Part shown: piece by piece, positions 16,900-29,532 of the stretch
Position numbering within the stretch: position 1 is the stretch's first letter
How the letters are laid out: every line of letters starts with the position of its first letter
Origin: Oscillospiraceae bacterium
GTDB lineage: Bacteria; Bacillota; Clostridia; Saccharofermentanales; Fastidiosipilaceae
DNA length: 34,172 bases
Assembly: GCA_028704415.1 (NCBI GenBank)
Contig: JAQWFM010000024.1
Span: forward strand, 1 to 34,172
Direction: 5' to 3'
Made by a program: the position numbers and the translations under genes
Notes under the pieces: generated by a model
Database searches by the model: none
The model's input: the letters and a program-made list of their open reading frames with translations, nothing else
Told to the model about the DNA's origin: nothing

Positions 16900-17880
16900 T
16901 CAGTTAGCGGCGCCGGCGGCCGGACGGCTGGCCAGGATATGATCAAATAATCTGGCACAGCTCAGCGTATCGGCCTGCGGGATGATCTTGCTCTCATACT
17001 GACCTGCCGTCACACAACGGCGCGCCTCCTCAATCTCATAAGTAAAGCCGTTGATAGTCTGCTGATCGGTAAAGTGCTCGCTTACCTTGCCCTCCAGATC
17101 ATAGAGGAACGCCTCTGTCGCCATATGCGGATGCGGAATGACAAGCCGGCCCCGGCTGCCGTAAAGCACCAGTTTTTCCTCAACAGGATTAAGAAAGGTA
17201 GCAGACAGTTGGGCCAGGCAGTGGTCAAAGCGTAAATTTACGGTGTCAGCCGCATCGACGCCGCTATCCGACCACAGCGCCTGAGCCTGCATAGCTTCAG
17301 GTTCCCGGCGCAGGAAAAACAACGCCAGTTCATAGGCGTACACTGTTAAATCATAGGCAGCCCCGCCGCCCAGTTCAGGATTAAAATAACGGTTGCGGGC
17401 ATCCGGCTGGGCTGCAAAGCCTAACTGAATATGAAGATAAGTCGGGGTCCCGATCCGGCCTTCTTCCAGCCAGGTTCTGGCCCGGAGATTCGCCGGCAGA
17501 TAACGCGACCACATGGCTTCCATAGCCAGGATGCCTTCTGACCTGGCTCGGCCCAGCGCGCTCCTGGCCTCCTGGCTGTTGCGGAACATGGCTTTTTCAC
17601 AGAGCACCGGCACTTTATGACTCAGGCAAAGCATGGTCAGATCATAGTGAGCGTTGGTGGTAGCAGCAATGTAAACGCAGTCCGGCCTGGCCGCCTCCAG
17701 CATCGCTTCATAGTCGTCAAAGGCCAGCGCCAGCTGTGCATTGTCAGCAAAGGCCTGCGCTCTGGTCTGGGATTTGCTGGCTACCGCGACAAGCTCACAG
17801 CCAGGCACCAGTTTAACTGCTTCCGCAAATTTGCGGGCAATCCCGCCAGCTCCCATGATAGCAAATCGAAATGGTCTCAT
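16900..17880 (-). CDS. Gfo/Idh/MocA family NAD(P)-dependent oxidoreductase
   Basis: Cytosolic two-domain oxidoreductase of 326 residues. The Rossmann motif MGAGGIARKFA lies at 9-19. The segment VLCEKAM (about 91-97) carries the catalytic-type lysine of the usual EKP motif, with Pro replaced by Ala. The C-terminal alpha/beta domain shows GGGAAYDLTVYAYELALFF, as in dihydrodiol-dehydrogenase-like members. Substrates in the family are mostly sugars, inositols or dihydrodiols; none can be assigned here. GAGGAGG is six bases before the ATG. It is the last gene after rnfCDGEA and a HAD phosphatase, 11 bp from the latter, so it is likely cotranscribed with the Rnf-like complex. Its NAD(P)H could link to RnfC, which is inference only. 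Confidence 0.88.
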   Translation of the reverse strand: MRPFRFAIMGAGGIARKFAEAVKLVPGCELVAVASKSQTRAQAFADNAQLALAFDDYEAMLEAARPDCVYIAATTNAHYDLTMLCLSHKVPVLCEKAMFRNSQEARSALGRARSEGILAMEAMWSRYLPANLRARTWLEEGRIGTPTYLHIQLGFAAQPDARNRYFNPELGGGAAYDLTVYAYELALFFLRREPEAMQAQALWSDSGVDAADTVNLRFDHCLAQLSATFLNPVEEKLVLYGSRGRLVIPHPHMATEAFLYDLEGKVSEHFTDQQTINGFTYEIEEARRCVTAGQYESKIIPQADTLSCARLFDHILASRPAAGAAN

Positions 17881-17891
17881 ACGTCCCTCCT

Positions 17892-18647
17892 CTAGGGCAG
17901 CAGCTCATTTGCCGCGGCTCCAGCCGCGGCGCACGCGCGGACCGCGGCGGCGCGTCCGGTGGTCGCAGGTCTGCCAGGAGTCGCGGTTTCAGCCGCGGCC
18001 GCCGGCGCCAAAAGTTCAGTCAGGCTTTGATGGTATTCGTCCGCCAGCGCCAAAAGCTCGGCTGAGGGCGGCGGATAGACCGCGTCTTGCACTAATACGG
18101 TATAAAAACCCGCGGCAGCGGCGGTGGTCAGGGCATGCGGCGCGTCCTCAAACACCACTGCCTCCTGATTTTGCGCCGCACCCAGCCGGCGCGCCGCAAT
18201 TTCATAGACATCCGGATGGTCCTTACTGACGCCAATATCAAAGGTACTCAGCAAAAAGCTGAAATCAGCGATAAGACCCAGGCGCTCCAGGCAGGCTGTC
18301 GCCAGGTCTCTGGGCGTGGCAGTGACAACCGCCAGCCGGCAGTGCTGCGCCTGCAGCTTCTGCAAATAGGCTTTAACCCCAGGCTTAACCGTAACGTCAG
18401 TCGCATAGTGACGGCGCATCAAATCAAAAAAGCTTTGCAGAATAACGGCTTCGCTCTCCGCAAAGTGGTAATGTGCCTTGATAAACGCCGCCACCTGAGG
18501 CATCCGCATCTTTAAGGTCAGGGCGATCAGGTCTGCAGGCGCACTGATGCCGCGGGTTTGCAGATATTCACTGCTTAAGCCGCGCCAAAAGCGCATAGAG
18601 TCTATCAAGGTACCATCCATATCAAACAAGGCAATGTGTCGGTTCAT
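17892..18647 (-). CDS. HAD-superfamily hydrolase, beta-phosphoglucomutase-like
   Basis: The 251-residue protein opens with the HAD motif I FDMDGTLIDS (nucleophile Asp). Motif II is VVTATPRDLA, and motifs III/IV are at SKDHPDVYEIA and VVFEDAPHALTTA. An alpha-helical cap lies between motifs I and II. This is the phosphatase/phosphomutase group acting on small sugar phosphates or related compounds in the cytosol. The ATG at 18647 has GGAG five bases upstream and gives the family start. The last about 40 residues form an Ala/Thr-rich tail (from about AAAAETATPGRP) not usual in this family, possibly from extension of a GC-rich 3' end. It begins 26 bp after rnfA, exactly where rnfB is expected in a canonical operon. 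Confidence 0.88.
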   Translation of the reverse strand: MNRHIALFDMDGTLIDSMRFWRGLSSEYLQTRGISAPADLIALTLKMRMPQVAAFIKAHYHFAESEAVILQSFFDLMRRHYATDVTVKPGVKAYLQKLQAQHCRLAVVTATPRDLATACLERLGLIADFSFLLSTFDIGVSKDHPDVYEIAARRLGAAQNQEAVVFEDAPHALTTAAAAGFYTVLVQDAVYPPPSAELLALADEYHQSLTELLAPAAAAETATPGRPATTGRAAAVRACAAAGAAANELLP

Positions 18648-18673
18648 CTTTTCTCCTGTCATGTTTATAAGCT

Positions 18674-19261
18674 TTAGAAAATCATACCATTAAAGCCCAT
18701 AAAAGCCAGGCAGATCAGACCGGCGGCAATCAGGAGCGAAGGCAGTCCCCGCAGCGCGCGGGGTTGACTGGCCCGGGCTTGTTCCATCCGCTCATTCAGG
18801 CCGCTGTAAATCAACATCAGGAGCATAAAACCCAGGCCGGAGGCCGCAGCCTGGCCAAGCGCGGCGCCAAAGCTTAGGGTCTGGCTCTGACTGTAAATTA
18901 ATCCGATACCCAGCACCGCTGACGAAACCAGCAAACTGGGGGACCAGGTCTGCACTAAGGCTGACAAGCCAGGGCTGAGCCTGCCGCAGAGCAACCTGAT
19001 CAAGCTAAGCCAGAGGATGGTCAGGACCAGGGTGGTCAGCAAATTCAGCACGGTCAGATCAAGCCGGACCCAAAGCAGATTCACCGCATAGGCTGAAGCC
19101 GCGGTCAAGACCGACAGCACCATCATGATCAGACCTAGGGTAAAGGCAGCCCTGGGTTTAGCCGGCGAATACAGGGCCAGGTCCGTGCCGAGCATCCGGA
19201 CCGTCACCACATTTTCAATAAAGACAGCCGCGATAAACGCGGTCAAAACAGCCTCAATCAT
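18674..19261 (-). CDS. rnfA: Divergent RnfA-like membrane subunit lacking the [2Fe-2S] cysteines
   Basis: Integral membrane subunit of an Rnf/Nqr-type redox pump, 195 residues with about six helices. Family identity is secured by FIENVVTVRMLG (14-25), SSAVLGIGL (113-121), GFMLLMLIYSGLNERM and the C-terminal AFMGFNGMIF. In canonical RnfA, the segments LGLCPF and TNCAVLG supply cysteines that bind a [2Fe-2S] cluster between RnfA and RnfE. Here they read LGTDLA (Asp27) and VSSAVLG (Ser114), so both ligands are gone. The two remaining cysteines (92 and 184) are not at ligand positions. AAGGAG precedes the ATG at 19261, which overlaps the end of rnfE by eight bases. No rnfB follows; a HAD gene does. 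NqrE would be the paralogous alternative. Confidence 0.88.
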   Translation of the reverse strand: MIEAVLTAFIAAVFIENVVTVRMLGTDLALYSPAKPRAAFTLGLIMMVLSVLTAASAYAVNLLWVRLDLTVLNLLTTLVLTILWLSLIRLLCGRLSPGLSALVQTWSPSLLVSSAVLGIGLIYSQSQTLSFGAALGQAAASGLGFMLLMLIYSGLNERMEQARASQPRALRGLPSLLIAAGLICLAFMGFNGMIF

Positions 19262-19910
19262 GCTGATTCTCCTTTTCCGGACGAACATACTGGGCTAAAG
19301 CTGCCAGCAGGCCTAATAGGATAAAGGCCCCGGACGGCAAGAGCAGCAAGAGCAGGGGCCGGGCCTGACTGTCACTGAACGCTTTACCCAGCAAGGTCCC
19401 GGCGCCCAAAACTTCCCGGATCAGGCCCAGCACGACCAGGAGAGCCCACATAAAGAGCAGCCGTTTCAGCCAGAGTTTCCAGGTGAAAGCAACTGAGGGG
19501 ACACTTTCCTCAACCGTACCGGCGCTAAGCTGCGGATGCAGCAACAACACCACTGCGGCAGCGGACAAAGGAATATAAAGGCCAAACGTCGCCGCCGCCG
19601 CGGGCAGATATGCCCGGAGCAGCAATTCTGCCACGGTAGCGCTGAAGCCCGCCGCTACCAGGGTCTGGGCCCACAGTGCATATTGGGAGCGTGAAGGAGC
19701 CAGGCGCTGCAGCAGGCGCAGAACAGCCAAGGTTACCAGGGTTTCCCCTGCAATCAGCAGACCCACCAGCGCGCCCTGGATGGTCGACAAGACGACCGCG
19801 GCAGGCAAAGCCGCGGCCAAAAAGACCGGCGTGGCCAGACTATTTTGATATGACGGTTTTGAAGTGGCAGCTAAAGATTGGCTTTCGGTGTTACTCTCAC
19901 TGGATTTCAT
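19254..19910 (-). CDS. rnfE: Divergent RnfE-like membrane subunit without any cysteine
   Basis: Partner of RnfA in the membrane core, 218 residues, about six helices. It aligns with RnfE through NSLATPVFLAAALPAAVVLST (24-44), FGLYIPLSAAAVV (about 109-121), LGLIREVLGAGTL and LLLPSGAFILLGLLAAL near the C-terminus. In canonical RnfE the motifs LGLCPLLAVT and IPLIVTNC each supply a cluster-binding cysteine; here the equivalent stretches read LAAALPAAVV and IPLSAAAV, and the whole protein contains no cysteine at all. It therefore cannot ligate the intramembrane [2Fe-2S] centre. Its ATG overlaps the rnfG stop by four bases (ATGA). The N-terminal 20 residues are polar and Ser-rich. Confidence 0.88.
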   Translation of the reverse strand: MKSSESNTESQSLAATSKPSYQNSLATPVFLAAALPAAVVLSTIQGALVGLLIAGETLVTLAVLRLLQRLAPSRSQYALWAQTLVAAGFSATVAELLLRAYLPAAAATFGLYIPLSAAAVVLLLHPQLSAGTVEESVPSVAFTWKLWLKRLLFMWALLVVLGLIREVLGAGTLLGKAFSDSQARPLLLLLLPSGAFILLGLLAALAQYVRPEKENQHD

Positions 19911-20821
19911 TTTAACCAGCCCCCCTCCTTCAGGATATCGGCAGCGTTCAGACAGGCGTTTATGGCCCGAACCAGCGCTTTACTGCTGACGGTCGCCTGT
20001 GATAAGGCTTCTACCGGCACGAGTGTCTGGCTGGCGTTGTCAGTGTTAGTGGCAGCGCTGTCAGCATCCGCCGCAGTCTCGCCGCCGGCTTCTCCGGCCG
20101 TGGTTTCTTCCGGCGTAGCGCTGCTGGCCCCGTCGGCTCCGGCGGTGGTCTCCTCTGAGGCCGCGTCACCGGCCGTGGTCTCCTCCGGCGTGGCGCTGCT
20201 GGCCCCGTCGGCTCCGGCGGTGGTTTCCTCTGAGGCCGCGTCACCGGCCGTGGTCTCCTCCGGCGTGGCGCTGCTCTCCCCGTCAGCTCCGGCGGTGGTT
20301 TCCTCTGAGGCCGCGTCACCGGCCGTGGTCTCCTCCGGCAAATCACCGGCCGCATAAACCTGCAATTGCGAATCAGGCCCGCCCAGTCCCACAAATTGCT
20401 GATAATAGGCGGGATCGCTCAAGCCATCGCCCAAACCCAGGGTTTCGTCGCTTTCAGTCACCCTGACGCCGGTCAGGGTCAGAGTCTGGGCATCTACCCC
20501 GATTAACGCAACGATGGGGCCTTCATGACCGGAGTCTTCAGCCTGAAACAAAATACCGATCGTTTGTCCGTCTTGTTTTGCCAGATAAATAGCGTCAACT
20601 TTATCACTGATGCCGCTGCCGGCTGCGCTGAGGTCAACCGGCTCAAAGCTGTCCGCGCCCGGCACCACCTGCTGTCTCAGCTCCAGTAAACTGCTGGCTT
20701 CCTGAGCCTTAACTTTATCTTTCAGGCCCGTATACAAACCGGTAATAACCAGGCCGGCAGCGACCACAAAAGCTGCCGGAACCAGCCACCGGCCAGTCTT
20801 GCCTTTCACCTTATTTTGCAT
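19907..20821 (-). CDS. rnfG: RnfG-like FMN-binding subunit with a Thr-rich repeat insertion
   Basis: Single-span protein whose FMN-binding domain faces outside in Rnf complexes. Of 304 residues, 13-31 form the membrane anchor. The first part of the FMN domain runs from about 70 to 150, with GHEGPIVALIGVD and the TESDETLGLGDG region matching the usual HxETPGLG area. Residues 163-237 are three 25-residue repeats of EETTAGDAAS plus EETTAGADG(E/A)SSATP, followed by more acidic, Thr/Ala-rich sequence. The flavin attachment motif comes only after this insertion: ALSQATVSS with Thr277, where the family has (S/T)GAT; the Gly is replaced by Gln and the preceding Asp by Glu. ApbE-dependent flavinylation is possible but not assured. 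GGAGG supports the ATG at 20821. It overlaps both neighbours. Confidence 0.88.
   Translation of the reverse strand: MQNKVKGKTGRWLVPAAFVVAAGLVITGLYTGLKDKVKAQEASSLLELRQQVVPGADSFEPVDLSAAGSGISDKVDAIYLAKQDGQTIGILFQAEDSGHEGPIVALIGVDAQTLTLTGVRVTESDETLGLGDGLSDPAYYQQFVGLGGPDSQLQVYAAGDLPEETTAGDAASEETTAGADGESSATPEETTAGDAASEETTAGADGASSATPEETTAGDAASEETTAGADGASSATPEETTAGEAGGETAADADSAATNTDNASQTLVPVEALSQATVSSKALVRAINACLNAADILKEGGWLK
20093..20335 (-). repeat. Three 75-bp tandem repeats (plus partial) within rnfG
   Basis: Positions 20335-20111 consist of three consecutive 75-bp units that are nearly identical at DNA level, and the first 18 bp of a fourth unit extend to 20093. Each unit encodes 25 residues containing two EETTAG cores. 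The length is a multiple of three, so copy-number changes would keep the reading frame and alter only the length of an extracytoplasmic linker. Near-identity suggests recent expansion by replication slippage or recombination. Confidence 0.9.
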
Positions 20822-21773
20822 GTTTCTTCCTCCCAAAGCTTGCAGGGACTAAAGCCCGGTCCAGCAGCGGTGTCAACAGGTTCATCAGCAGAATGGCAAA
20901 AGTCACCCCTTCAGGGTAAGCACCAAAACGGCGGATCAGGATGGTCAAAAAGCCTGCTCCGGCCGCAAAAATCCACTGACCGCTGCGCCGCATAGGGGTG
21001 GAGGTATAGTCAGTCACCATAAAGACTGCGGCAAAAATCACACCGCCGTTTAAAAGCTGGTATAAGACATTGCCGGTAAACCAGCCATCCGATCCCCAGA
21101 ACCAGGCAAACAAAGCAAAGACAGCCAGGTAGATCAGCGGGACCTCCCAATGGATCACTCGCCTGACGATCAGATAGGCAAAGCCCAAAATAATCGCCAG
21201 GATGCAGACTTCGCCGATTGAACCAGCTTTATTGCCTAAAAACGAGTCCAGCAACGACGGGACCGTCCCCGACCATTTGGCGGCTGGCAGCGGCGTCGCT
21301 CCGCTGATCAGATCCAGCGATTCAGCACCTGCCTGGGGATTCATAAACTGAATCATCTGCCTGGGAAAGGAAATAAGCAGGAAGGCCCGGGCCGCCAAAG
21401 CCGGGTTCATAAAGTTACGCCCGATGCCCCCAAACAGCAGCTTAACCAGCAGCACCGCAAACACGCTGCCCAGCATAGCCAGCCACCAGGGCAGTAACGG
21501 CGTGACGCTTAACCCCAGCAGCAGGCCGGTCACAGCAGCGCTCAAATCAGCGCCGGTCACGGTTTGGTGCAGCAGTTTTTCATAGATATATTCGGTCAGT
21601 ACAGCCGAGCCGGTGCTCACCACCAAAACCAGCAAAGCCCGCCAGCCGTAAAGTACACAGCCGGCTGCCGCCAGCGGCAGGAGCGCAATCAATACATCCC
21701 GCATCACGGCGGTGGTACTGCGTCCGCTGTGAATTTGCGGACTGGCCGTTTTTGCTATGCCTGTTGTCATCAT
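20811..21773 (-). CDS. rnfD: RnfD-like membrane flavoprotein subunit
   Basis: Integral membrane subunit (320 residues, about nine helices) that carries covalent FMN and conducts electrons and ions in Rnf/Nqr. The flavinylation motif is intact: DLISGATPLP with Thr160. Other family stretches are GIGRNFMNPALAARAFL (116-132), VFMVTDYTSTPMR, and FGAYPEGVTFAILLMN near the end. The first of two consecutive ATG codons (21773) is nine bases after GGAGG and overlaps the rnfC stop. The C-terminus overlaps rnfG by 11 bp. Unlike RnfA, E and G here, its functional motif shows no obvious damage. NqrB is the paralogue, but RnfC next door has the FeS clusters of Rnf. Confidence 0.93.
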   Translation of the reverse strand: MMTTGIAKTASPQIHSGRSTTAVMRDVLIALLPLAAAGCVLYGWRALLVLVVSTGSAVLTEYIYEKLLHQTVTGADLSAAVTGLLLGLSVTPLLPWWLAMLGSVFAVLLVKLLFGGIGRNFMNPALAARAFLLISFPRQMIQFMNPQAGAESLDLISGATPLPAAKWSGTVPSLLDSFLGNKAGSIGEVCILAIILGFAYLIVRRVIHWEVPLIYLAVFALFAWFWGSDGWFTGNVLYQLLNGGVIFAAVFMVTDYTSTPMRRSGQWIFAAGAGFLTILIRRFGAYPEGVTFAILLMNLLTPLLDRALVPASFGRKKHAK

Positions 21774-23149
21774 TGGGCCTGACCTCCCTGTGTTGCCTGC
21801 CGCTGCGCCAGTTTAAGCTGTTGTTTACCGTATACAAAAGACTGGGTCAACAGGCGGTAAGCCGGGCAGATATAGCTGCAGCAGCCGCATTCAATGCAAT
21901 CTTTCATATAGTAGCGGTCGGCTGCTTCCTGATAGCGGCCCAGCAGCACTAATTGATTCATCTCGCTGGGCTGCAGGCTCATGGGACAGACCTCCGCGCA
22001 CAAGCCGCAGCGGATACAGGCCTGCTCTGCCTGTTTTTGAGTTTGCGCGGCCGTCAGGCCCAGCAGCAGGTTTGTCTGCTTTAAGGTCCCCGCTTCATAG
22101 TCTTCCACTAATCGTCCCATCATGGGGCCGCCTTGAATGAGGCTGGCCGCCGCTCCGTGCAAGCCGCCGACATAAGTCAGGATCTGGCTGACGGGGGTGC
22201 CCACCGGCACCATCAGATTACGCGGTCGGTCAAAAGCCGGGCCGGTTACGGTAATGCGACGCTGCGTCAGCGGCTGCCCCGTTTTGAGATAAACCGCAAT
22301 AGCGGCCAGGGAGCTGACATTCATAACCAGGGCACCTGCCGCGGACGGCAAAGCGCCGCCGGCAATCCTGCGGCCGCTGACGGCATAGACCAGCTGTTTT
22401 TCACCGCCCTGGGGATACCGCCGGGGCAAAACCCGCACACGGATCCGCTCATCCGCCGCAGCCAGTTCACTAAGATGCCGGATGGCATCAGGCTTGTTGC
22501 CCTCAATCCCAATAATGGCCTGACCAATCTGAGCGTAATCCAGGACCGCGCGGATCCCCGCAATAATCTCAGCGCCGTTTTCAAGCATGTCCCGCGCGTC
22601 TGAAGCTGAATATGGTTCACATTCAGAACCGTTGGCCACCAGTAAATCTATGCTCTGGCCGGGCGCGCTGCCCAGTTTAAAAAAGGCCGGGAAGCCGGCG
22701 CCGCCCAGGCCCACGACGCCTGAGGCTCTGACCGCCTGCCTGAAGCTGGCAAAATCAGTTACAGCGGGGACCTGCAACTGCTCCCACTGGGTTTGCCGGC
22801 CATCTGAGGCAATAACAACCACCGGACAGCGCTGGCCATTAAGGTTAGTCGCTTCATCAACAGACAGTACCCGACCGGACACGGAAGCATGTACCGGCAC
22901 AGACATCAGGTCGACCGGACTGGCCACGGGCTGACCTACCGCCACTAAATCGCCCGGCCTGACCAGCAGCCGGCAACCGGCGGGCGTGACTGAAGTAACG
23001 GCCAGCTTCACTTGCGCGGGCAGTGGTAATGTTTCCGTGGCGACAGCCTGGGCGGCCTTCTGGTCATCCGGATGAACCCCGCCGACCGGGCGCCGGACGG
23101 CTTTACTGAGGCGTTTGGACCAGGTGGCCGAGGTTATGTGTTTTGCCAT
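21770..23149 (-). CDS. rnfC: RnfC, NADH-side FMN/FeS subunit
   Basis: Cytosolic peripheral subunit that exchanges electrons with NAD(H). The 459 residues show the Rnf N-terminal GGVHPDDQK (23-31), the glycine-rich nucleotide-binding GLGGAGFP (147-154) and NGSECEPY (173-180). Two complete 4Fe-4S motifs follow: CIRCGLCAEVCP (Cys378/381/384/388) and CIECGCCSYICP (Cys418/421/424/428). A C-terminal extension past the clusters is short, so there is no fused RnfB. It is the first gene of the leftward operon; GGGG stands eight bases before the ATG, and a promoter is visible at 23249-23221. Presence of both clusters excludes NqrA. Confidence 0.94.
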   Translation of the reverse strand: MAKHITSATWSKRLSKAVRRPVGGVHPDDQKAAQAVATETLPLPAQVKLAVTSVTPAGCRLLVRPGDLVAVGQPVASPVDLMSVPVHASVSGRVLSVDEATNLNGQRCPVVVIASDGRQTQWEQLQVPAVTDFASFRQAVRASGVVGLGGAGFPAFFKLGSAPGQSIDLLVANGSECEPYSASDARDMLENGAEIIAGIRAVLDYAQIGQAIIGIEGNKPDAIRHLSELAAADERIRVRVLPRRYPQGGEKQLVYAVSGRRIAGGALPSAAGALVMNVSSLAAIAVYLKTGQPLTQRRITVTGPAFDRPRNLMVPVGTPVSQILTYVGGLHGAAASLIQGGPMMGRLVEDYEAGTLKQTNLLLGLTAAQTQKQAEQACIRCGLCAEVCPMSLQPSEMNQLVLLGRYQEAADRYYMKDCIECGCCSYICPAYRLLTQSFVYGKQQLKLAQRQATQGGQAQ

Positions 23150-23434: not shown

Positions 23435-23478
23435 TAGAAAGGATATTTCAAGAGTTATGCATAAGGGAGATGACTATT

Positions 23479-25050
23479 ATGTGGCTGGTTCAGTCTTATC
23501 TGAAACGGGCTGTAGCGCGTTATCCCAACCATCCGGCTGTGGTAGATCCGGAGCAAAGCTTCAGCTACAGTCAGCTGGCCGACAAACTAAATCACCTGAC
23601 CTCCGCGTTGCTGGCTGGGGGGGTCAGTCATCGCCAACCGGTTCCTGTTCTGTTGCCTAAATCCTGCCTCAGCGTGGCAGTCCTGCTTAGTGTGGCCCAG
23701 GCCGGCGCTTTTTACGTGCCACTAAATCCTGACCAGCCACCGGCCCGCTTGGGTCATTTACTGCAGCGCCTGAACGCAGCCCTGGTGATCAGTGACGCCC
23801 AGGGCCAGCAGATTTTGTCTACAGCCGGCTTCGCGGGCCAGGTTTGGGTGGCAGAAGACCTGTTGCAGCAGCCGCTGCAGCCGGAGCTGATGGCGCGGCG
23901 GCAACACCTGCTGCTGGATACGGATCCGCTATATTGTAATTTTACCTCCGGTTCTACCGGTGAGCCCAAGGGCGTCCTGATCTCCCAGCGTTCAGTCGTG
24001 GATTTTATAGAAGCCTTTGTCCCCCTGGCAGGCCTGAGTCACACCTCCGTCATTGGCAATCAGGCCCCCTATGATTTTGATGTTTTTGTCAAAGATCTGT
24101 ACGGCAGTCTATGCTGCGGCGCCACCCTGGTCTTGATTCCGACGCCCTACTTCACGCAACCCGCCCGCTTGCTGGATTATATTTGTGACCAGCAGGTTGA
24201 TACCCTGATCTGGGCCGTTTCAGCCCTGTGCCTGATCAGTATGCTTAAGGGCTTCAGCTACCGGGTGCCGCGGCAGCTGCGCCAGGTGCTGTTCAGCGGC
24301 GAGCCCATGCCCCTGAAGCAATTAAAAATCTGGATGGATCATCTGCCTCAGACCCGGTTTATCAACCTTTACGGACCTACAGAAATCACCTGTAACTGCA
24401 CTTACTTTGAAGTACCCGGCCCGCAGGCGCTGTCAGCCCCTTTGCCCATCGGCCGGCCCTTTGCCAATGAAGCGGTGTTTTTGCTGGATGACCGCGATCA
24501 GCAGATCACAGCGCCTGAACAAGAAGGTCAGCTCTGCGTGGCCGGCACCTGCCTGGCTTTAGGCTATTATATGGATCCGGTCCGCACGGCCGAGCATTTC
24601 ACGCTCAATCCGCTCAATCCAGCCTTTCCTGAACGGATATACCGGACAGGGGATATGGCCTATTACCGGCCGGACGGTAACCTGATGTTTACCGGCCGGC
24701 GCGACGGCCAGATTAAGCTGATGGGCCACCGCATTGAGCTGGGCGAAATTGAGGCCGCACTGGAGCTGCAACCGGCAGTGGAACGGGCCTGCTGTATTTT
24801 TGACCGACGGCGGCAGCGGCTACTGGCCTTTGCGGTGCCGCAGCCACAATTGGTGGCTTTGTTGCCCCTGGACCTTCCTGTGCGGGCTCAGAAAATCAGT
24901 GTGACTGAGCAGCAGCTGCAAGAGGCGCTACGCGCCCTCTTGCCCCATTATATGGTGCCGCAGCGTATTTACTGGTATCGCACGCTGCCGCTTAACCCCC
25001 ACGGCAAGCTGGATCGCGCCAGCTTAAGCAAGCGTTATGAGGAGGCCTGA
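23479..25050 (+). CDS. Amino-acid adenylation enzyme, DltA/NRPS A-domain type
   Basis: Stand-alone adenylating enzyme (523 residues) that should activate an amino acid with ATP and load it as a thioester on the carrier protein encoded two genes downstream. Core motifs are complete: A3 FTSGSTGEPKGV (155-166), A4 PYDFDVFV with Asp201, which in amino-acid-activating enzymes binds the substrate amine, A5 NLYGPTE (296-302), A7 YRTGD (388-392), A8 GRRDGQIKLMGHRIELGEIE (406-425) and A10 with Lys510 in GKLDR. The size and gene context are like DltA (D-alanine:carrier ligase), but the substrate pocket around TLIWAVSAL (242-250) cannot be read confidently as D-alanine. The ATG at 23479 is preferred to 23470, because GGGAG abuts the latter but stands nine bases before the former. 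The next gene begins two bases after the stop. Confidence 0.9.
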   Translation: MWLVQSYLKRAVARYPNHPAVVDPEQSFSYSQLADKLNHLTSALLAGGVSHRQPVPVLLPKSCLSVAVLLSVAQAGAFYVPLNPDQPPARLGHLLQRLNAALVISDAQGQQILSTAGFAGQVWVAEDLLQQPLQPELMARRQHLLLDTDPLYCNFTSGSTGEPKGVLISQRSVVDFIEAFVPLAGLSHTSVIGNQAPYDFDVFVKDLYGSLCCGATLVLIPTPYFTQPARLLDYICDQQVDTLIWAVSALCLISMLKGFSYRVPRQLRQVLFSGEPMPLKQLKIWMDHLPQTRFINLYGPTEITCNCTYFEVPGPQALSAPLPIGRPFANEAVFLLDDRDQQITAPEQEGQLCVAGTCLALGYYMDPVRTAEHFTLNPLNPAFPERIYRTGDMAYYRPDGNLMFTGRRDGQIKLMGHRIELGEIEAALELQPAVERACCIFDRRRQRLLAFAVPQPQLVALLPLDLPVRAQKISVTEQQLQEALRALLPHYMVPQRIYWYRTLPLNPHGKLDRASLSKRYEEA

Positions 25051-25051
25051 G

Positions 25052-26320
25052 ATGCTGTCTGATAAGCTCTGCCAAACTGCTGCGGCAGCTTTCGGCACCC
25101 CGGTTTACTTGTTTGATCTGGATCGGCTGAAGCAGCAGGTTGAACTGGTCCGGACGCAATTGCCCCAGGCTCGGCTCTGCTTTGCGGTCAAGGCCAATCC
25201 GTTTCTGATTCCGGCGCTGAGCCAGTGGCTGGACCGGTTTGAACTGTGTTCTCCCGGGGAATGGTCCCTCACCCAAAAGCTGAAGCTGCCTCAGGACCAT
25301 CTGGTCATATCCGGGGTTTATAAAAGTGCGGCTGATCTGGCCGCCATCTTTGACCAATCGGGAGACAGCTTGCCTGAGATCAGCCTGGAATCAGCCGAAC
25401 AACTGGCCTTACTGAATCAGCAGGCTCAGCGGCAGCAGCGCCCGGTGTCCGTGCTGCTGCGCCTGAGCAGCGGCAACCAGTTTGGCATGGATGAGGCAGC
25501 GCTGCGCGCCATCCTGGCCCGGCGGCAAGCATACCCTTACCTTAAGCTGACCGGTCTTCAGTTTTATTCCGGTACCCAGAAACATAGCGCCAAAATCACG
25601 GCTGAAGTTGCCGGGCTGGAAAAGCTATGCCGCTCCCTGGAGCAGGATTTTAACCTGCCCCCTTTAGCCCTTGAATATGGTCCGGGGTTGGCGGTTCGCT
25701 ACTTTATCGATAGCGGCCAATCCGCAGCAACAGCCGATCTGGATGGATCAGATCTGGCTCAGTTACAGGTTCTTAGTCAAGCTTTGACCCAAGCCGGTTG
25801 TCAGCGGCCGCTGACGCTGGAAATGGGACGTTTTTTAACAGCTGCCTGCGGCAGCTATCTGACTCAGATCGTTGATCTGAAAACAACCCGGTCAGATCAT
25901 TATTGCCTTACAGACGGCGGCATCCATCATTTGGCCTATTACGGACAGATGCTGGGGATGAAGCAGCCGCCGGTCCGCCTGATAAAAGCAGGTCCGGGCT
26001 TAAAGCCAGGCAACCTGACCGGCCGCGCGGCCAGCCCCAAAGCTGCTTCTGCAGCGGCCGCAAACTGGACGGTCTGCGGGGCGCTGTGCACCGTAAATGA
26101 CGTCTTGCTGCGCTGCATCAGTCTGCCTGACCCGCAGCCAGGTGATTGGCTGTGCTTTGACCGCTGCGGCGCGTATTCTGTAACCGAAGGTCTGGCCTTG
26201 TTTCTCAGCCGGGCCTTACCGGCAGTGGCCGCCTGCAGCAAGGCCGACGGCTTGCAGTGCCTGCGGCCGTCTACCGCGTCCTGGCCGCTAAACCAGCCGC
26301 AAATTCAGCCGAATAATTAG
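25052..26320 (+). CDS. Fold-type III PLP-dependent amino-acid decarboxylase
   Basis: Member of the diaminopimelate/ornithine decarboxylase group (422 residues), which also includes BtrK, a decarboxylase acting on a carrier-bound glutamyl thioester in butirosin synthesis. The PLP lysine is Lys47 in CFAVKANP. Further markers are GLQFYSGTQKHS (168-179), LEYGPGLAVRYF (207-218) as phosphate-binding region, EMGR (257-260), DGGIHH (288-293), CTVND with Cys346 and GAYS (373-376). These fit the less studied branch with GTQ and GPG motifs rather than classic LysA. GAGGAGG six bases upstream supports the ATG at 25052. A Ser/Pro/Gln-rich tail of about 25 residues follows the barrel domain. Its position between adenylation enzyme and carrier protein suggests it modifies the activated amino acid or its precursor. 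An alanine racemase role is less likely. Confidence 0.87.
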   Translation: MLSDKLCQTAAAAFGTPVYLFDLDRLKQQVELVRTQLPQARLCFAVKANPFLIPALSQWLDRFELCSPGEWSLTQKLKLPQDHLVISGVYKSAADLAAIFDQSGDSLPEISLESAEQLALLNQQAQRQQRPVSVLLRLSSGNQFGMDEAALRAILARRQAYPYLKLTGLQFYSGTQKHSAKITAEVAGLEKLCRSLEQDFNLPPLALEYGPGLAVRYFIDSGQSAATADLDGSDLAQLQVLSQALTQAGCQRPLTLEMGRFLTAACGSYLTQIVDLKTTRSDHYCLTDGGIHHLAYYGQMLGMKQPPVRLIKAGPGLKPGNLTGRAASPKAASAAAANWTVCGALCTVNDVLLRCISLPDPQPGDWLCFDRCGAYSVTEGLALFLSRALPAVAACSKADGLQCLRPSTASWPLNQPQIQPNN

Positions 26321-26450
26321 GGATCAATATTGTTATCTGAATTTATTGGAATATTCGCTTACTTTGCCATGATTCTTAATAAATTATTGCAACATTTTTT
26401 ATGCGAATCATTTATTACTATACCGGATCAAAAAAAGTGAGGTAAAGATT
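26321..26450 (+). promoter_or_regulatory. AT-rich leader of the carrier-protein gene, possible internal promoter
   Basis: This 130-bp gap is much richer in A+T than its surroundings. TTGCAA (26387-26392) and TTTATT (26411-26416) at 18-bp spacing form a weak promoter candidate, and ATTCGC / GCGAAT around 26353-26407 form a loose inverted repeat. An internal promoter would allow the carrier protein and transferase genes to be expressed apart from the adenylation enzyme and decarboxylase. Confidence 0.3.
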
Positions 26451-26681
26451 ATGGATGAAATTATTACGATCTTAACTGATGTTCAGCCCGGTGAAGATTA
26501 CAGCCATCTGGAAGGTTTAGTCGATAAACGGATCCTGGATTCGCTGTCCATTATTTCTCTGGTATCAGAACTGGAAGATCATTTTGACATTGATATCGCG
26601 CCGGTAGATATTGTCCCCGCTAATTTTAATTCCGCCGCTGCCATCTGGCAGCTGGTACAAAAGCTTCAGGATGACGCGTGA
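26451..26681 (+). CDS. Acyl/aminoacyl carrier protein (DltC-like)
   Basis: Small acidic four-helix carrier of 76 residues. Phosphopantetheine would attach to Ser31 in LDSLSIISL. The following SELEDHFDIDI and ANFNSAAAIWQLV resemble the helix II/III region of DltC and other stand-alone aminoacyl carriers more than fatty-acid AcpP, which has GADSLD at this site. GAGG lies nine bases upstream. It sits between the PLP decarboxylase and the MBOAT transferase, so it most likely shuttles the activated (amino)acyl group from the adenylation enzyme to the membrane acyltransferase. Its codon composition is more AT-rich than its neighbours. Confidence 0.92.
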   Translation: MDEIITILTDVQPGEDYSHLEGLVDKRILDSLSIISLVSELEDHFDIDIAPVDIVPANFNSAAAIWQLVQKLQDDA

Positions 26682-26781
26682 TCGCCGTTGTTATTGACTT
26701 GCTGCGGATTGATGTCTGAAGCCTGAGGCGCAGGTTTTATCCCGGGCTTGCGCTCACCTTTATAGTCAGGAAAACTAAGCC

Positions 26782-28362
26782 ATGTCATATAATGCGCCGT
26801 TATTTCTTTTTGTGTTTTTACCGCTCTCCTGGGGGGTGACCAGACTGATCCCCCGGCGTGGGCAGTGGCTGTCCCTGCTGTTGTTCAGTTGGGTTTATTA
26901 TCTGTCTTTCAGCCCCAGAATGCTTTTGGTGCTCGTCTTCACTATCTGCTGTACCTATTTGTCTGGCTTGATTTTGGAACGGTTATTCAAACGGGCAGAC
27001 CGGCTGGCCAGGCAAACAGCTGACCGGCAGGACCGCAAAGCCGTCAAGGCCCGGGTAAAGCGGCAGGCAAGGCTGGTATTGGCTGCGGCGATTGTGATCA
27101 TATTAGGCGAGCTGATCCTGTTTAAGTACCTGAGTTTTTTTACCACCAATCTCAATCTGCTGCTGAGTTTAGTGTCAGCTCCTAAAAGCCTGCCACTGCT
27201 GAAACTGGGCGAACCATTGGGAATATCCTTTTTTACCCTGCAATCCCTGTCCTACCTGATTGATGTATTTCGCCGCAAGTATCCGGCTGAACGCCACTGG
27301 GGCCGGCTGGCACTGTGGCTTTCCTTTTTTCCCCAAATCATGGAAGGACCGATCTGCCGCTATGACCAGACGGCAGCTTCATTGTTTGCCGGGCACAGCC
27401 TTAAGCTTGCTGATCTGACCAGCGGCGGCCAGCGAATCATCTGGGGGCTATTTAAAAAAGTTGTCATAGCCGATCGCCTCAATCCCCTGGTGACAGCCGT
27501 GTTTGACCACCCGCAGCAACAAGCCGGCCTAACGGTTTTAGTTGGCGCTTTTTGCTATACCATGCAGCTTTATGCTGATTTTTCCGGCTCTATTGATATT
27601 GTGATTGGCAGTGCCCGCCTGTTTGGCATAGCGTTACCCGAAAACTTTAACCGTCCCTTCTTTTCCCGCAGCGCTTCAGAATTCTGGCGCCGCTGGCATA
27701 TCTCCCTGGGAGCCTGGCTGCGAGACTACGTTTTTTATACCATCTCTTTCAGCCACCGGATGAAGCAGTGGGACAAAAAGCACCGGGGGGACTGGCTGTA
27801 TTTTTTCCCGCTGGCCATTGCGCTGGCAGCAGTGTGGCTCTGTAACGGCTTGTGGCATGGCGCCGGTTGGCAATATATTTTTTTCGGATTGTATTATTAT
27901 GTACTGATTCTGGGCGGTAACCTGCTGGAGCCGGTATACCGGCAAATCTTTACCGGGCTCGGCTGGTCCCGCCAAAGCCGTGGCTGGCAGGTTTTTCAGA
28001 TCGCCAGGACCTTCCTGCTGGTCATTTTGGGCGAATTGATTTTCCGCTCGCCGTCGCTGGGACAGGCCTTCGGCCTGATCGCCCGCGGCTTCAGCCGGTT
28101 CAGCCTGACAACCCTGCAGGACGGCAGCCTCTTAAAACTGGGCCTGGATAAAGCCGATTGGATCGTCGTTGCCCTGGGATTAGTGCTGCTTTTCAGCGTT
28201 GAAAGCATCCAGGAGGCAGGCCTGAATTTTTCCCTCCGTCTCAGCCAGCTGCCACGAGCAGGGCGCTGGGCGCTTTATTTGGGTCTGATTTTTGTCATTG
28301 TTATTGCCGGCGCCTATGGTCGTAATTATGGCGTAGTCCCCTTGATTTACGCCGGGTTCTAA
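26782..28362 (+). CDS. MBOAT-family O-acyltransferase, AlgI-like
   Basis: Polytopic membrane protein (526 residues, about 11 hydrophobic segments) that passes an acyl group from inside donors to an extracytoplasmic acceptor. The N-terminal APLFLFVFLPLSWG, the SGSIDIVIGSARLFG region and the hallmark EFWRRWHISLGAWLRDYVF (300-318) are AlgI/PatA-like. The MBOAT active-site histidine is His359 in NGLWHGAGW. At over 500 residues it is longer than DltB (about 400) and closer to polysaccharide O-acetyltransferases. It nevertheless lies in an operon with an aminoacyl-carrier loading system, which suggests a carrier-bound aminoacyl donor. AGGA is ten bases before the ATG; 100 bp separate it from the carrier gene. 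Confidence 0.93.
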   Translation: MSYNAPLFLFVFLPLSWGVTRLIPRRGQWLSLLLFSWVYYLSFSPRMLLVLVFTICCTYLSGLILERLFKRADRLARQTADRQDRKAVKARVKRQARLVLAAAIVIILGELILFKYLSFFTTNLNLLLSLVSAPKSLPLLKLGEPLGISFFTLQSLSYLIDVFRRKYPAERHWGRLALWLSFFPQIMEGPICRYDQTAASLFAGHSLKLADLTSGGQRIIWGLFKKVVIADRLNPLVTAVFDHPQQQAGLTVLVGAFCYTMQLYADFSGSIDIVIGSARLFGIALPENFNRPFFSRSASEFWRRWHISLGAWLRDYVFYTISFSHRMKQWDKKHRGDWLYFFPLAIALAAVWLCNGLWHGAGWQYIFFGLYYYVLILGGNLLEPVYRQIFTGLGWSRQSRGWQVFQIARTFLLVILGELIFRSPSLGQAFGLIARGFSRFSLTTLQDGSLLKLGLDKADWIVVALGLVLLFSVESIQEAGLNFSLRLSQLPRAGRWALYLGLIFVIVIAGAYGRNYGVVPLIYAGF

Positions 28363-28383
28363 CGTTACATTGAGGTATTATAC

Positions 28384-29532
28384 ATGAAGCGTCTCATAAG
28401 GCATCCCATAAAGCATCCCACAGTTCTGGAAAATCCAGGTTTATTGCCAGCTGTAACCTTATTCAGCCGACCGGTCCAGGTGATGCTTAAGATCGGTGTG
28501 TTTGCCGGGCTTCTGCTGGCTTTACTGCTATTGCTTTCTTGGCTTTTAACCCCGCTGCAGCCAGGTGAACGCTGGTCAGTCCACCCGGAACAGGATTTTC
28601 CCATTAAAGCCGAGACGCCGGACAGTGTGGATGCGGTCATGTTGGGCGACAGTCTGGGGTACGGAGATTTTGTACCAGCTTTATTATGGAATCAATATGG
28701 TTACACGACCTATGTCTGCAGTCAGTCGGCGCAGCCTTTGGAAGAGGCCTGGGCACAGCTGCAAGCAACTTTAGAGGAACAATCACCCAAACTGGTTATG
28801 CTGGAAACTGATCAGTTTTACCGATCCAGTACCCTGGCTTCAGATATCAGCCGGGCACTGTTGTTTGAGGCGGGGCAGCGTCTGCCCATTTTTAGATTTC
28901 ATGATCAGTGGAAGCAATTATTAGGCCTTAAGCAGACCCCCGCACTCAAGGCCCTGCAGCAGACCCAGCTGAAAGGCTACCGGTTTTCCAAGCTTACCCA
29001 GGGCTATAATGGCACCGCCTATATGAACGACAGCGGAACCTTAAAAGTACAGCCAGTTACGGCTTATTATCTGAACAAAATTGTGTCACTGTGTCAGGAA
29101 CGTGGTATCAATCTCTTGTTTATCAGCATGCCTTCGCCCAAAAACTACAGCATGAAGCGGCATAACGGGATTGCGCTGCTGGCTGAGCATTACAGCATTC
29201 CTTATCTGGATCTAAATCTTGATGCCCAGCAGTGCGGGATTGACTGGGCTCAAGATACCAGAGACAAGGGGGATCACCTCAATTACCGGGGGGCTCAAAA
29301 GGCCACTTTAGCCATTGGCAGCTACTTGTCCGAGCATTATCAGCTACCTGACCGGCGCGGGAGCGATATTGCCGCCAGCTGGGATGAGACGTGGGCGGCT
29401 TACCAGCAGCTATGCCAGGATGCGGAAAATCCCGATACCGGAGGAGACAGCTCCCATATCGGGGTAACTGAACCGGCCTATCTGCCGGCCAGTCCTGAGC
29501 TGATGGCAGCCCAGGCCACCACGGAAAACTAA
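28384..29532 (+). CDS. Membrane-anchored SGNH/DltD-like protein
   Basis: The 382-residue protein has a basic N-terminus, one membrane helix at about 32-56 and an extracytoplasmic SGNH-type domain. The nucleophile motif is MLGDSLGYGD with Ser90, and the C-terminal Asp/His pair falls in KGDHLNYRGAQ (Asp297, His298). Such proteins (DltD, AlgX/AlgJ, PatB) complete transfer of the acyl group handed over by the MBOAT partner. It follows the MBOAT gene by 21 bp, with GAGGT eight bases before the ATG, and ends the operon. The last about 40 residues are polar and low-complexity. DltD and AlgJ-like assignments cannot be separated by eye. Confidence 0.85.
   Translation: MKRLIRHPIKHPTVLENPGLLPAVTLFSRPVQVMLKIGVFAGLLLALLLLLSWLLTPLQPGERWSVHPEQDFPIKAETPDSVDAVMLGDSLGYGDFVPALLWNQYGYTTYVCSQSAQPLEEAWAQLQATLEEQSPKLVMLETDQFYRSSTLASDISRALLFEAGQRLPIFRFHDQWKQLLGLKQTPALKALQQTQLKGYRFSKLTQGYNGTAYMNDSGTLKVQPVTAYYLNKIVSLCQERGINLLFISMPSPKNYSMKRHNGIALLAEHYSIPYLDLNLDAQQCGIDWAQDTRDKGDHLNYRGAQKATLAIGSYLSEHYQLPDRRGSDIAASWDETWAAYQQLCQDAENPDTGGDSSHIGVTEPAYLPASPELMAAQATTEN

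Follow-up and report, generated by a model that had tools for sequence, protein, structure and literature searches.

An Rnf-derived gene cluster that lacks rnfB and the [2Fe-2S] ligands of RnfA and RnfE in a genus of Fastidiosipilaceae

We analysed a stretch of 34,172 nucleotides from the draft genome of an Oscillospiraceae bacterium of the family Fastidiosipilaceae (GCA_028704415.1, contig JAQWFM010000024.1, positions 1 to 34,172; hereafter the window), which carries homologues of rnfC, rnfD, rnfG, rnfE and rnfA on the minus strand. All four cysteines that hold the [2Fe-2S] cluster between RnfA and RnfE are replaced, both here and in a sister species, and no match to the RnfB model TIGR01944 above its cut-off was found in either genome. 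RnfB and these four cysteines are two defining features of Rnf ferredoxin:NAD+ oxidoreductase. As both were looked for and found to be missing, the cluster is a descendant of rnf that should not be given this name. We consider it fairly probable that the encoded complex is a half-Rnf which passes electrons from NADH to flavins on the outer face, with RnfA and RnfE as a cluster-free scaffold and without Na+ pumping of the Rnf type.

The five genes are contiguous in the order rnfC-D-G-E-A and neighbours overlap by 4-11 bases. RnfC (21770-23149) and RnfD (20811-21773) scored above the cut-offs of their family models (TIGR01945, 414.6 bits; TIGR01946, 297.5 bits) and matched the A. woodii subunits 9ERI_C and 9ERI_D with E=1.5e-86 and E=1.6e-70, respectively. 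RnfG (19907-20821, ATG at 20821) reached 66.9 bits against a TIGR01947 cut-off of 102, and the RnfE (19254-19910) and RnfA (18674-19261) homologues reached 49 and 85 bits against Rnf-model cut-offs of 213 and 229. In Pfam all three were above cut-off: RnfG matched FMN_bind (PF04205), in a match that spans the insert described below, and was aligned to 9ERI_G, while RnfE and RnfA matched Rnf-Nqr (PF02508, 45.3 and 62.3 bits) and the subunits 9ERI_E (E=4.4e-14) and 9ERI_A (E=8.2e-18).

For the residue mapping we used the A. woodii Rnf complex (9ERI) as the reference, with the identities of the ligands taken from PMC11889175. In RnfA the ligand C25 corresponds to Asp27 and C113 to Ser114. In RnfE C25 corresponds to Ala34 (Leu35 in an alternative alignment) and C108 to Val120, and the protein contains no cysteine at all. 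A first-pass annotation, made by a model from the letters of the window, had named Asp27, Ser114 and the cysteine-free RnfE, and the alignment to the solved structure shows the same. It had also allowed for substitute metal ligands at the same positions. The RnfE side supplies only Ala or Leu and Val, none of them usable, and hence the site is not rebuildable from substitute residues. Judged by these alignments, RnfA and RnfE cannot hold the cluster in the usual way.

The slot which rnfB occupies in relatives is taken by a HAD hydrolase gene on the minus strand (17892-18662; PF13419, 82.5 bits), downstream of rnfA; its start codon lies 11 bases past the rnfA stop codon. Coordinates and family models confirm the first-pass description of contiguous and overlapping rnfC, D, G, E and A genes with a HAD phosphatase gene in place of rnfB. 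The run continues, again with an 11-base gap, into a Gfo/Idh/MocA oxidoreductase gene on the same strand (16900-17880; PF01408 and PF22725 over cut-off), and both genes are kept at the same positions in the sister species (L026:8921-9694 and L026:9707-10693). We tried the HAD protein as a substitute for RnfB and rejected it; it has no redox motif and is simply a neighbour.

A separate rnfB or a second canonical rnf locus had been suggested as a possible counter-finding, and whole-genome searches revealed neither in the own or the sister genome. In each of them this pair of Rnf-Nqr proteins is the only one. The sister species (G001) is the isolate Oscillospiraceae bacterium HV4-5-C5C (DSM 103941), a pure culture obtained by cellulose enrichment from a grass-fed acidogenic leach-bed digester (PMC7330241). 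Its cluster is the same and shows identical losses, which speaks against chance, and our sample of the genus consists of these two species, both of them digester bacteria. The expectation that RnfB is absent wherever the cysteines are lost holds in both known cases, i.e. in two species of one genus. Among the 12 genomes of the family, all seven with canonical RnfA and RnfE have an RnfB above cut-off, and three others show no Rnf-Nqr match. No other cluster-less Rnf was encountered in 188 genomes of the order, where three odd weak matches proved to be contig-edge fragments. For the class we searched 391 genomes with a model of the cysteine-less RnfE; the 19 best non-self matches all have the GxC motif, and 17 further rnf loci kept the cysteines in both subunits (one RnfA with TC instead of NC). 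Since the class was sampled and the cysteines were checked in the best matches only, independent cases may exist in unsampled clades. A search of genome contigs returned the sister only, and we found no relevant report of an rnfB-less Rnf in open-licence papers.

The NADH side of the complex is well preserved. In RnfC the motifs GLGGAGFP, SECEPY, YPQGGEKQL, CIRCGLCAEVCP and CIECGCCSYICP are intact, and both [4Fe-4S] motifs (CxxCxxCxxxCP) as well as the motifs of the site for NADH and flavin mononucleotide (FMN) are present. RnfD has the flavinylation motif DLISGATPL (SGAT with Thr160), and the alignment to 9ERI_D shows that Asn123 and Asp255, the riboflavin residues, are kept as well. The motifs and the 9ERI alignments bear out the earlier statement that RnfC keeps both 4Fe-4S motifs and RnfD its flavinylation site. 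ApbE, the enzyme which attaches flavin, is single-copy in both species and absent in G002 and G003, two near-complete members of the family without Rnf. RnfG retains the Thr that accepts FMN, in SQATVSS, with an attachment motif of SQAT as opposed to S-G/A/S-A-T elsewhere. We do not take SQAT as proof of a dead site, given that the Thr is retained and that the motif is variable at its second residue (G, A or S). At the column of A. woodii RnfG Tyr113 both species have His, where all 22 other RnfGs have Tyr or Phe. The flavin domain of RnfG is interrupted by an EETTA-rich linker coded by a 75-bp tandem repeat (20094-20339, 3.3 copies, Tandem Repeats Finder). This repeat is ~50 residues longer in the sister (L026 rnfG) and changes fast within an otherwise constrained gene.

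To place the cluster we used an RnfC+RnfD tree of 24 loci and defined the near-invariant columns on the 22 canonical loci. The tree puts the genus beside g7 and inside its own family with 100/99 support and with RnfB-bearing relatives around it. This nesting indicates a canonical six-gene Rnf as the ancestor of the cluster, and it rules out a horizontal origin of RnfC and RnfD. The near-invariant columns were retained very unequally: 58/64 in RnfC (91%), 56/59 in RnfD (95%) and 70% in RnfG, compared to only 19/50 in RnfE (38%) and 16/46 in RnfA (35%; Fisher p 2e-19 for A+E against C+D). On the stem branch to the genus, with the topology fixed, we obtained 0.94 changes per column for C, 0.58 for D, 1.63 for G, 5.75 for E and 3.49 for A, where the values of E and A come from alignments at 22-33% identity and are to be taken as large, not exact. 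Since the split of the two species A and E have changed at rates near those of C and D. The ratio of nonsynonymous to synonymous substitution rates (dN/dS) between the species is 0.10 for C, 0.08 for D, 0.11 for G, 0.18 for E and 0.13 for A (dS 0.6-1.1), and all five genes are under purifying selection. This burst on the stem followed by renewed constraint suggests that the genes have changed their role rather than decayed. Most of the losses fall on the ferredoxin-side subunits of the electron path. The first-pass claim that the ferredoxin branch and its wiring were removed jointly therefore stands, as there is also no RnfB in either genome and no [2Fe-2S] site that could be rebuilt. The losses, the common history, the selective constraint, the NADH-side motifs and the presence of ApbE are all shown by the present data.

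For the function of the complex, we infer flavinylation, electron direction, acceptor and lack of pumping as follows. A canonical rnfCDGEAB operon would have lost rnfB in the ancestor of the genus and along with it, in either order, the [2Fe-2S] centre of RnfA and RnfE, which is the electron link from RnfB to RnfG. Electrons would then pass from NADH to RnfC (FMN, two [4Fe-4S]), from there to RnfD (riboflavin, covalent FMN) and to RnfG (covalent FMN, outer face), and finally to an extracytosolic flavin or Fe(III) acceptor. The complex would form a one-way electron conduit from cytosolic NADH, and RnfA and RnfE would be retained as a membrane scaffold with neither the cluster nor Na+ pumping of the Rnf type. 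The first-pass annotation had left two functional options. Going by the sequence we favour the one in which NADH electrons go to flavin at the outer face and to an external acceptor, and we disfavour ion pumping with a new redox couple.

A candidate for the acceptor is an FMN-domain lipoprotein (L076:8403-8768 and L069:1375-1743) which ends a ferric-siderophore ABC operon in both species, downstream of a siderophore-type substrate-binding protein, two FecCD permeases and an ABC ATPase. By reading, its lipobox-like cysteine stands in VGAC in one species and in AVGC in the other. The attachment motif is DGISQATVTS. In both species RnfG shares its SQAT with this lipoprotein, while the other RnfGs in our comparison all lack it. 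The common motif is a hint that one ApbE may serve both proteins. A role of the lipoprotein as electron acceptor is a plausible possibility. Flavinylated proteins are tied to iron assimilation in other organisms (PMC8238504), and in two relatives FMN-domain proteins are situated among ABC-transporter genes. Beside the iron operon both species have a membrane protein of ~1,055 aa (L076:9620-12787 and L078:7685-10855) downstream of a TetR gene; it consists mostly of SSGASQL-type repeats and is YhgE/Pip-like by reading. ApbE itself lies in an operon (L077:6574-9923 and L079:6314-9405), where it follows first a heptaprenyl-diphosphate-synthase-I-like (ECF-type) gene and then the gene of a lipoprotein. 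This second lipoprotein has ~390-400 aa, with two stretches that resemble each other and both end in LS(T/S)VTI, and matched no model of Pfam or NCBIfam above cut-off. It may be a flavin-binding protein that has diverged, or a cell-wall shuttle.

Several points weigh against such a conduit. The link to the acceptor is circumstantial because the operon of the lipoprotein lies on another contig and no gene for an extracellular reductase was found beside the rnf genes. RnfA and RnfE have not been deleted, and so they must have some role for which the conduit model offers scaffolding as little more than a name. The flavin site of RnfG may itself be altered, considering the change from Tyr to His, the different attachment motif and the large insert; in A. 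woodii the RnfG variant Y113A was inactive. Furthermore the evidence comes from two species only, and the AlphaFold models of RnfE and RnfA, which were built from two-row alignments, had a predicted local distance difference test (pLDDT) score of 48-49 and were not used. More tentatively, it is possible that an Rnf without its ferredoxin branch was re-purposed as a dedicated exporter of electrons from NADH to extracellular flavin, with RnfA and RnfE as a cluster-free device of new function, be it a scaffold or a cluster-independent ion path.

The constraint on RnfA and RnfE raises the question of whether ion transport was kept or regained after the loss of their cluster, with the flow from NADH to flavin through RnfD and RnfG coupled in a cluster-independent way. 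Both genes are retained, overlap and are constrained after the burst (dN/dS 0.13 and 0.18), and the flavin pocket is altered in RnfG, a subunit that in A. woodii switches its docking between RnfA/E and RnfD. However, in A. woodii the binding of Na+ by RnfE R67-E115 and by residues near the cluster in RnfA and RnfE depends on cluster reduction, which drives both this binding and the inward/outward switch, and without the cluster cysteines the ferredoxin:NAD+ activity is abolished (PMC11889175). In the window R67 corresponds to Gln76 (Arg in the sister) and E115 to Gln127 of RnfE, while in RnfA T110 is replaced by Leu, T111 by Val, N112 and L108 by Ser and K32 by Ala. Without the [2Fe-2S] cluster that drives Na+ transport in A. 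woodii, and with most residues of the Na+ site around it replaced, pumping via the published mechanism seems unlikely. RnfD was reported not to translocate Na+ in A. woodii (PMC11889175). Overall we regard ion transport by the present complex as unlikely.

A second alternative is that the complex became useless after the loss of rnfB and that RnfA, RnfE and RnfG are decaying relics held in place by polar or structural constraint. RnfE and RnfA did lose ~63% of their near-invariant residues and fall below the Rnf cut-offs, and three other genomes of the family have no Rnf-Nqr match. But there are five open frames under strong purifying selection across two species at a dS of 0.6-1.1, RnfC and RnfD are nearly unchanged, and the rates of A and E after the split do not differ much from those of C and D. 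Another indication against a relic is ApbE, which was retained here and is missing in the Rnf-less G002 and G003. A decaying complex is therefore quite improbable.

Electrons from ferredoxin might also enter by an unrecognised replacement of RnfB encoded elsewhere and reach RnfG or RnfD by another way. Pyruvate:ferredoxin oxidoreductase (PFOR) and two [FeFe] hydrogenases are present, one of them of the HydABC type (bifurcating-type, with HydB and HydA), and thus reduced ferredoxin is made. This excludes an absent ferredoxin metabolism as the reason for the loss; the ferredoxin can be spent by the hydrogenase, and this may be the reason why Rnf could do without its ferredoxin branch. Loose matches to RnfB do exist in the genus. 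All sub-cut-off TIGR01944 matches cover the ferredoxin part alone, though, and fall in the ferredoxin domains of proteins other than RnfB, with HydB and HydA as the two best, whereas the N-terminus of RnfB had no match in the genome. We rejected a hidden RnfB on these grounds. Moreover, with the RnfA/E cluster missing, no route other than RnfD is known by which electrons could get from the cytosolic face to RnfG, and we judge a replacement of RnfB to be very unlikely. An assembly or annotation artefact, i.e. an rnfB in a contig gap or frameshifts masking the cysteines, would fit the state of the draft (141 contigs, 93.9% completeness) but is hardly credible, since the rnf genes are interior to one contig with 11-18 kb flanking each side and the HV4-5-C5C genome, sequenced at 2,457x (PMC7330241), has the identical gene order and identical residues at the lost sites.

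We compared the cluster with related systems. Canonical Rnf (A. woodii 9ERI, Clostridium tetanomorphum 7ZC6, Azotobacter vinelandii 8AHX) resembles it in the order C-D-G-E-A, the homologous subunits, the cofactor motifs of RnfC and RnfD and the ApbE-type attachment Thr of RnfD and RnfG. It differs in having RnfB, the RnfA/E [2Fe-2S] ligands and a Na+ site that is mostly changed here, as well as in the pocket Tyr and the uninterrupted flavin domain of RnfG. Na+-NQR, for which an origin by rnfB loss from a duplicated rnf operon was proposed (PMC4014512), is likewise an rnf descendant without rnfB, but it is the mirror image of the present case. Nqr kept the cluster in NqrD/E, acquired NqrF as the subunit for NADH and no longer has the RnfC cofactors in its NqrA, whereas here the cluster is gone and the RnfC cofactor motifs are kept. 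An NqrF-like gene is absent from the cluster and from the neighbouring genes that we examined, and RnfD matches PF03116 alone without a fused NAD-binding domain of the NqrF type (PF00175). The two-subunit Nqr/Rnf-like complexes, which consist of an RnfD-NqrF fusion and an RnfG-like subunit and are found mainly in Actinobacteria and the Candidate Phyla Radiation, were proposed to transfer electrons from NAD(P)H to extracytosolic acceptors over the same half path as a one-way export (PMC8238504, PMC11334425). They share with the present cluster the restriction to the half from NAD(P)H to the outer flavin. In contrast, they are without RnfC, RnfA, RnfE and the flavinylation site of RnfD, while here RnfC would provide the NADH site and the RnfD motif and cluster-less RnfA and RnfE are kept. 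Flavin-based extracellular electron transfer of the Listeria type uses ApbE-flavinylated lipoproteins, and in the present genus ApbE adjoins the heptaprenyl-diphosphate-synthase-I-like gene and a lipoprotein gene; the NADH entry would here consist of Rnf subunits, which differs from the Listeria type.

Elsewhere in the window, a Dlt-like set is located on the plus strand (23470-29532). It starts with a DltA-like amino-acid adenylation enzyme followed by a LysA/ornithine-type pyridoxal-phosphate-dependent decarboxylase, both checked against family models. By reading, it continues with a small protein that resembles acyl carriers (26451-26681), a membrane protein of MBOAT-like type (26782-28362) and a DltD/SGNH-like protein (28384-29532). 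A decarboxylase between the DltA-like and the carrier genes is unusual, and an amine may be loaded instead of D-alanine.

The Rnf/Nqr ion pump is proposed to have the membrane [2Fe-2S] cluster of RnfA and RnfE at its heart. An Rnf that lacks this cluster in nature and yet remains under selection sets the electron wire apart from the pump, and so probes the role of RnfA and RnfE without their cluster. As one of the two species was deposited as a pure culture (DSM 103941), these questions are directly testable. The genus is also a living example of the loss of rnfB, the proposed first step towards Nqr, with the opposite outcome. If the exporter reading is true, the complex would be a natural counterpart of Nqr in which the same loss of rnfB was resolved in the opposite way.

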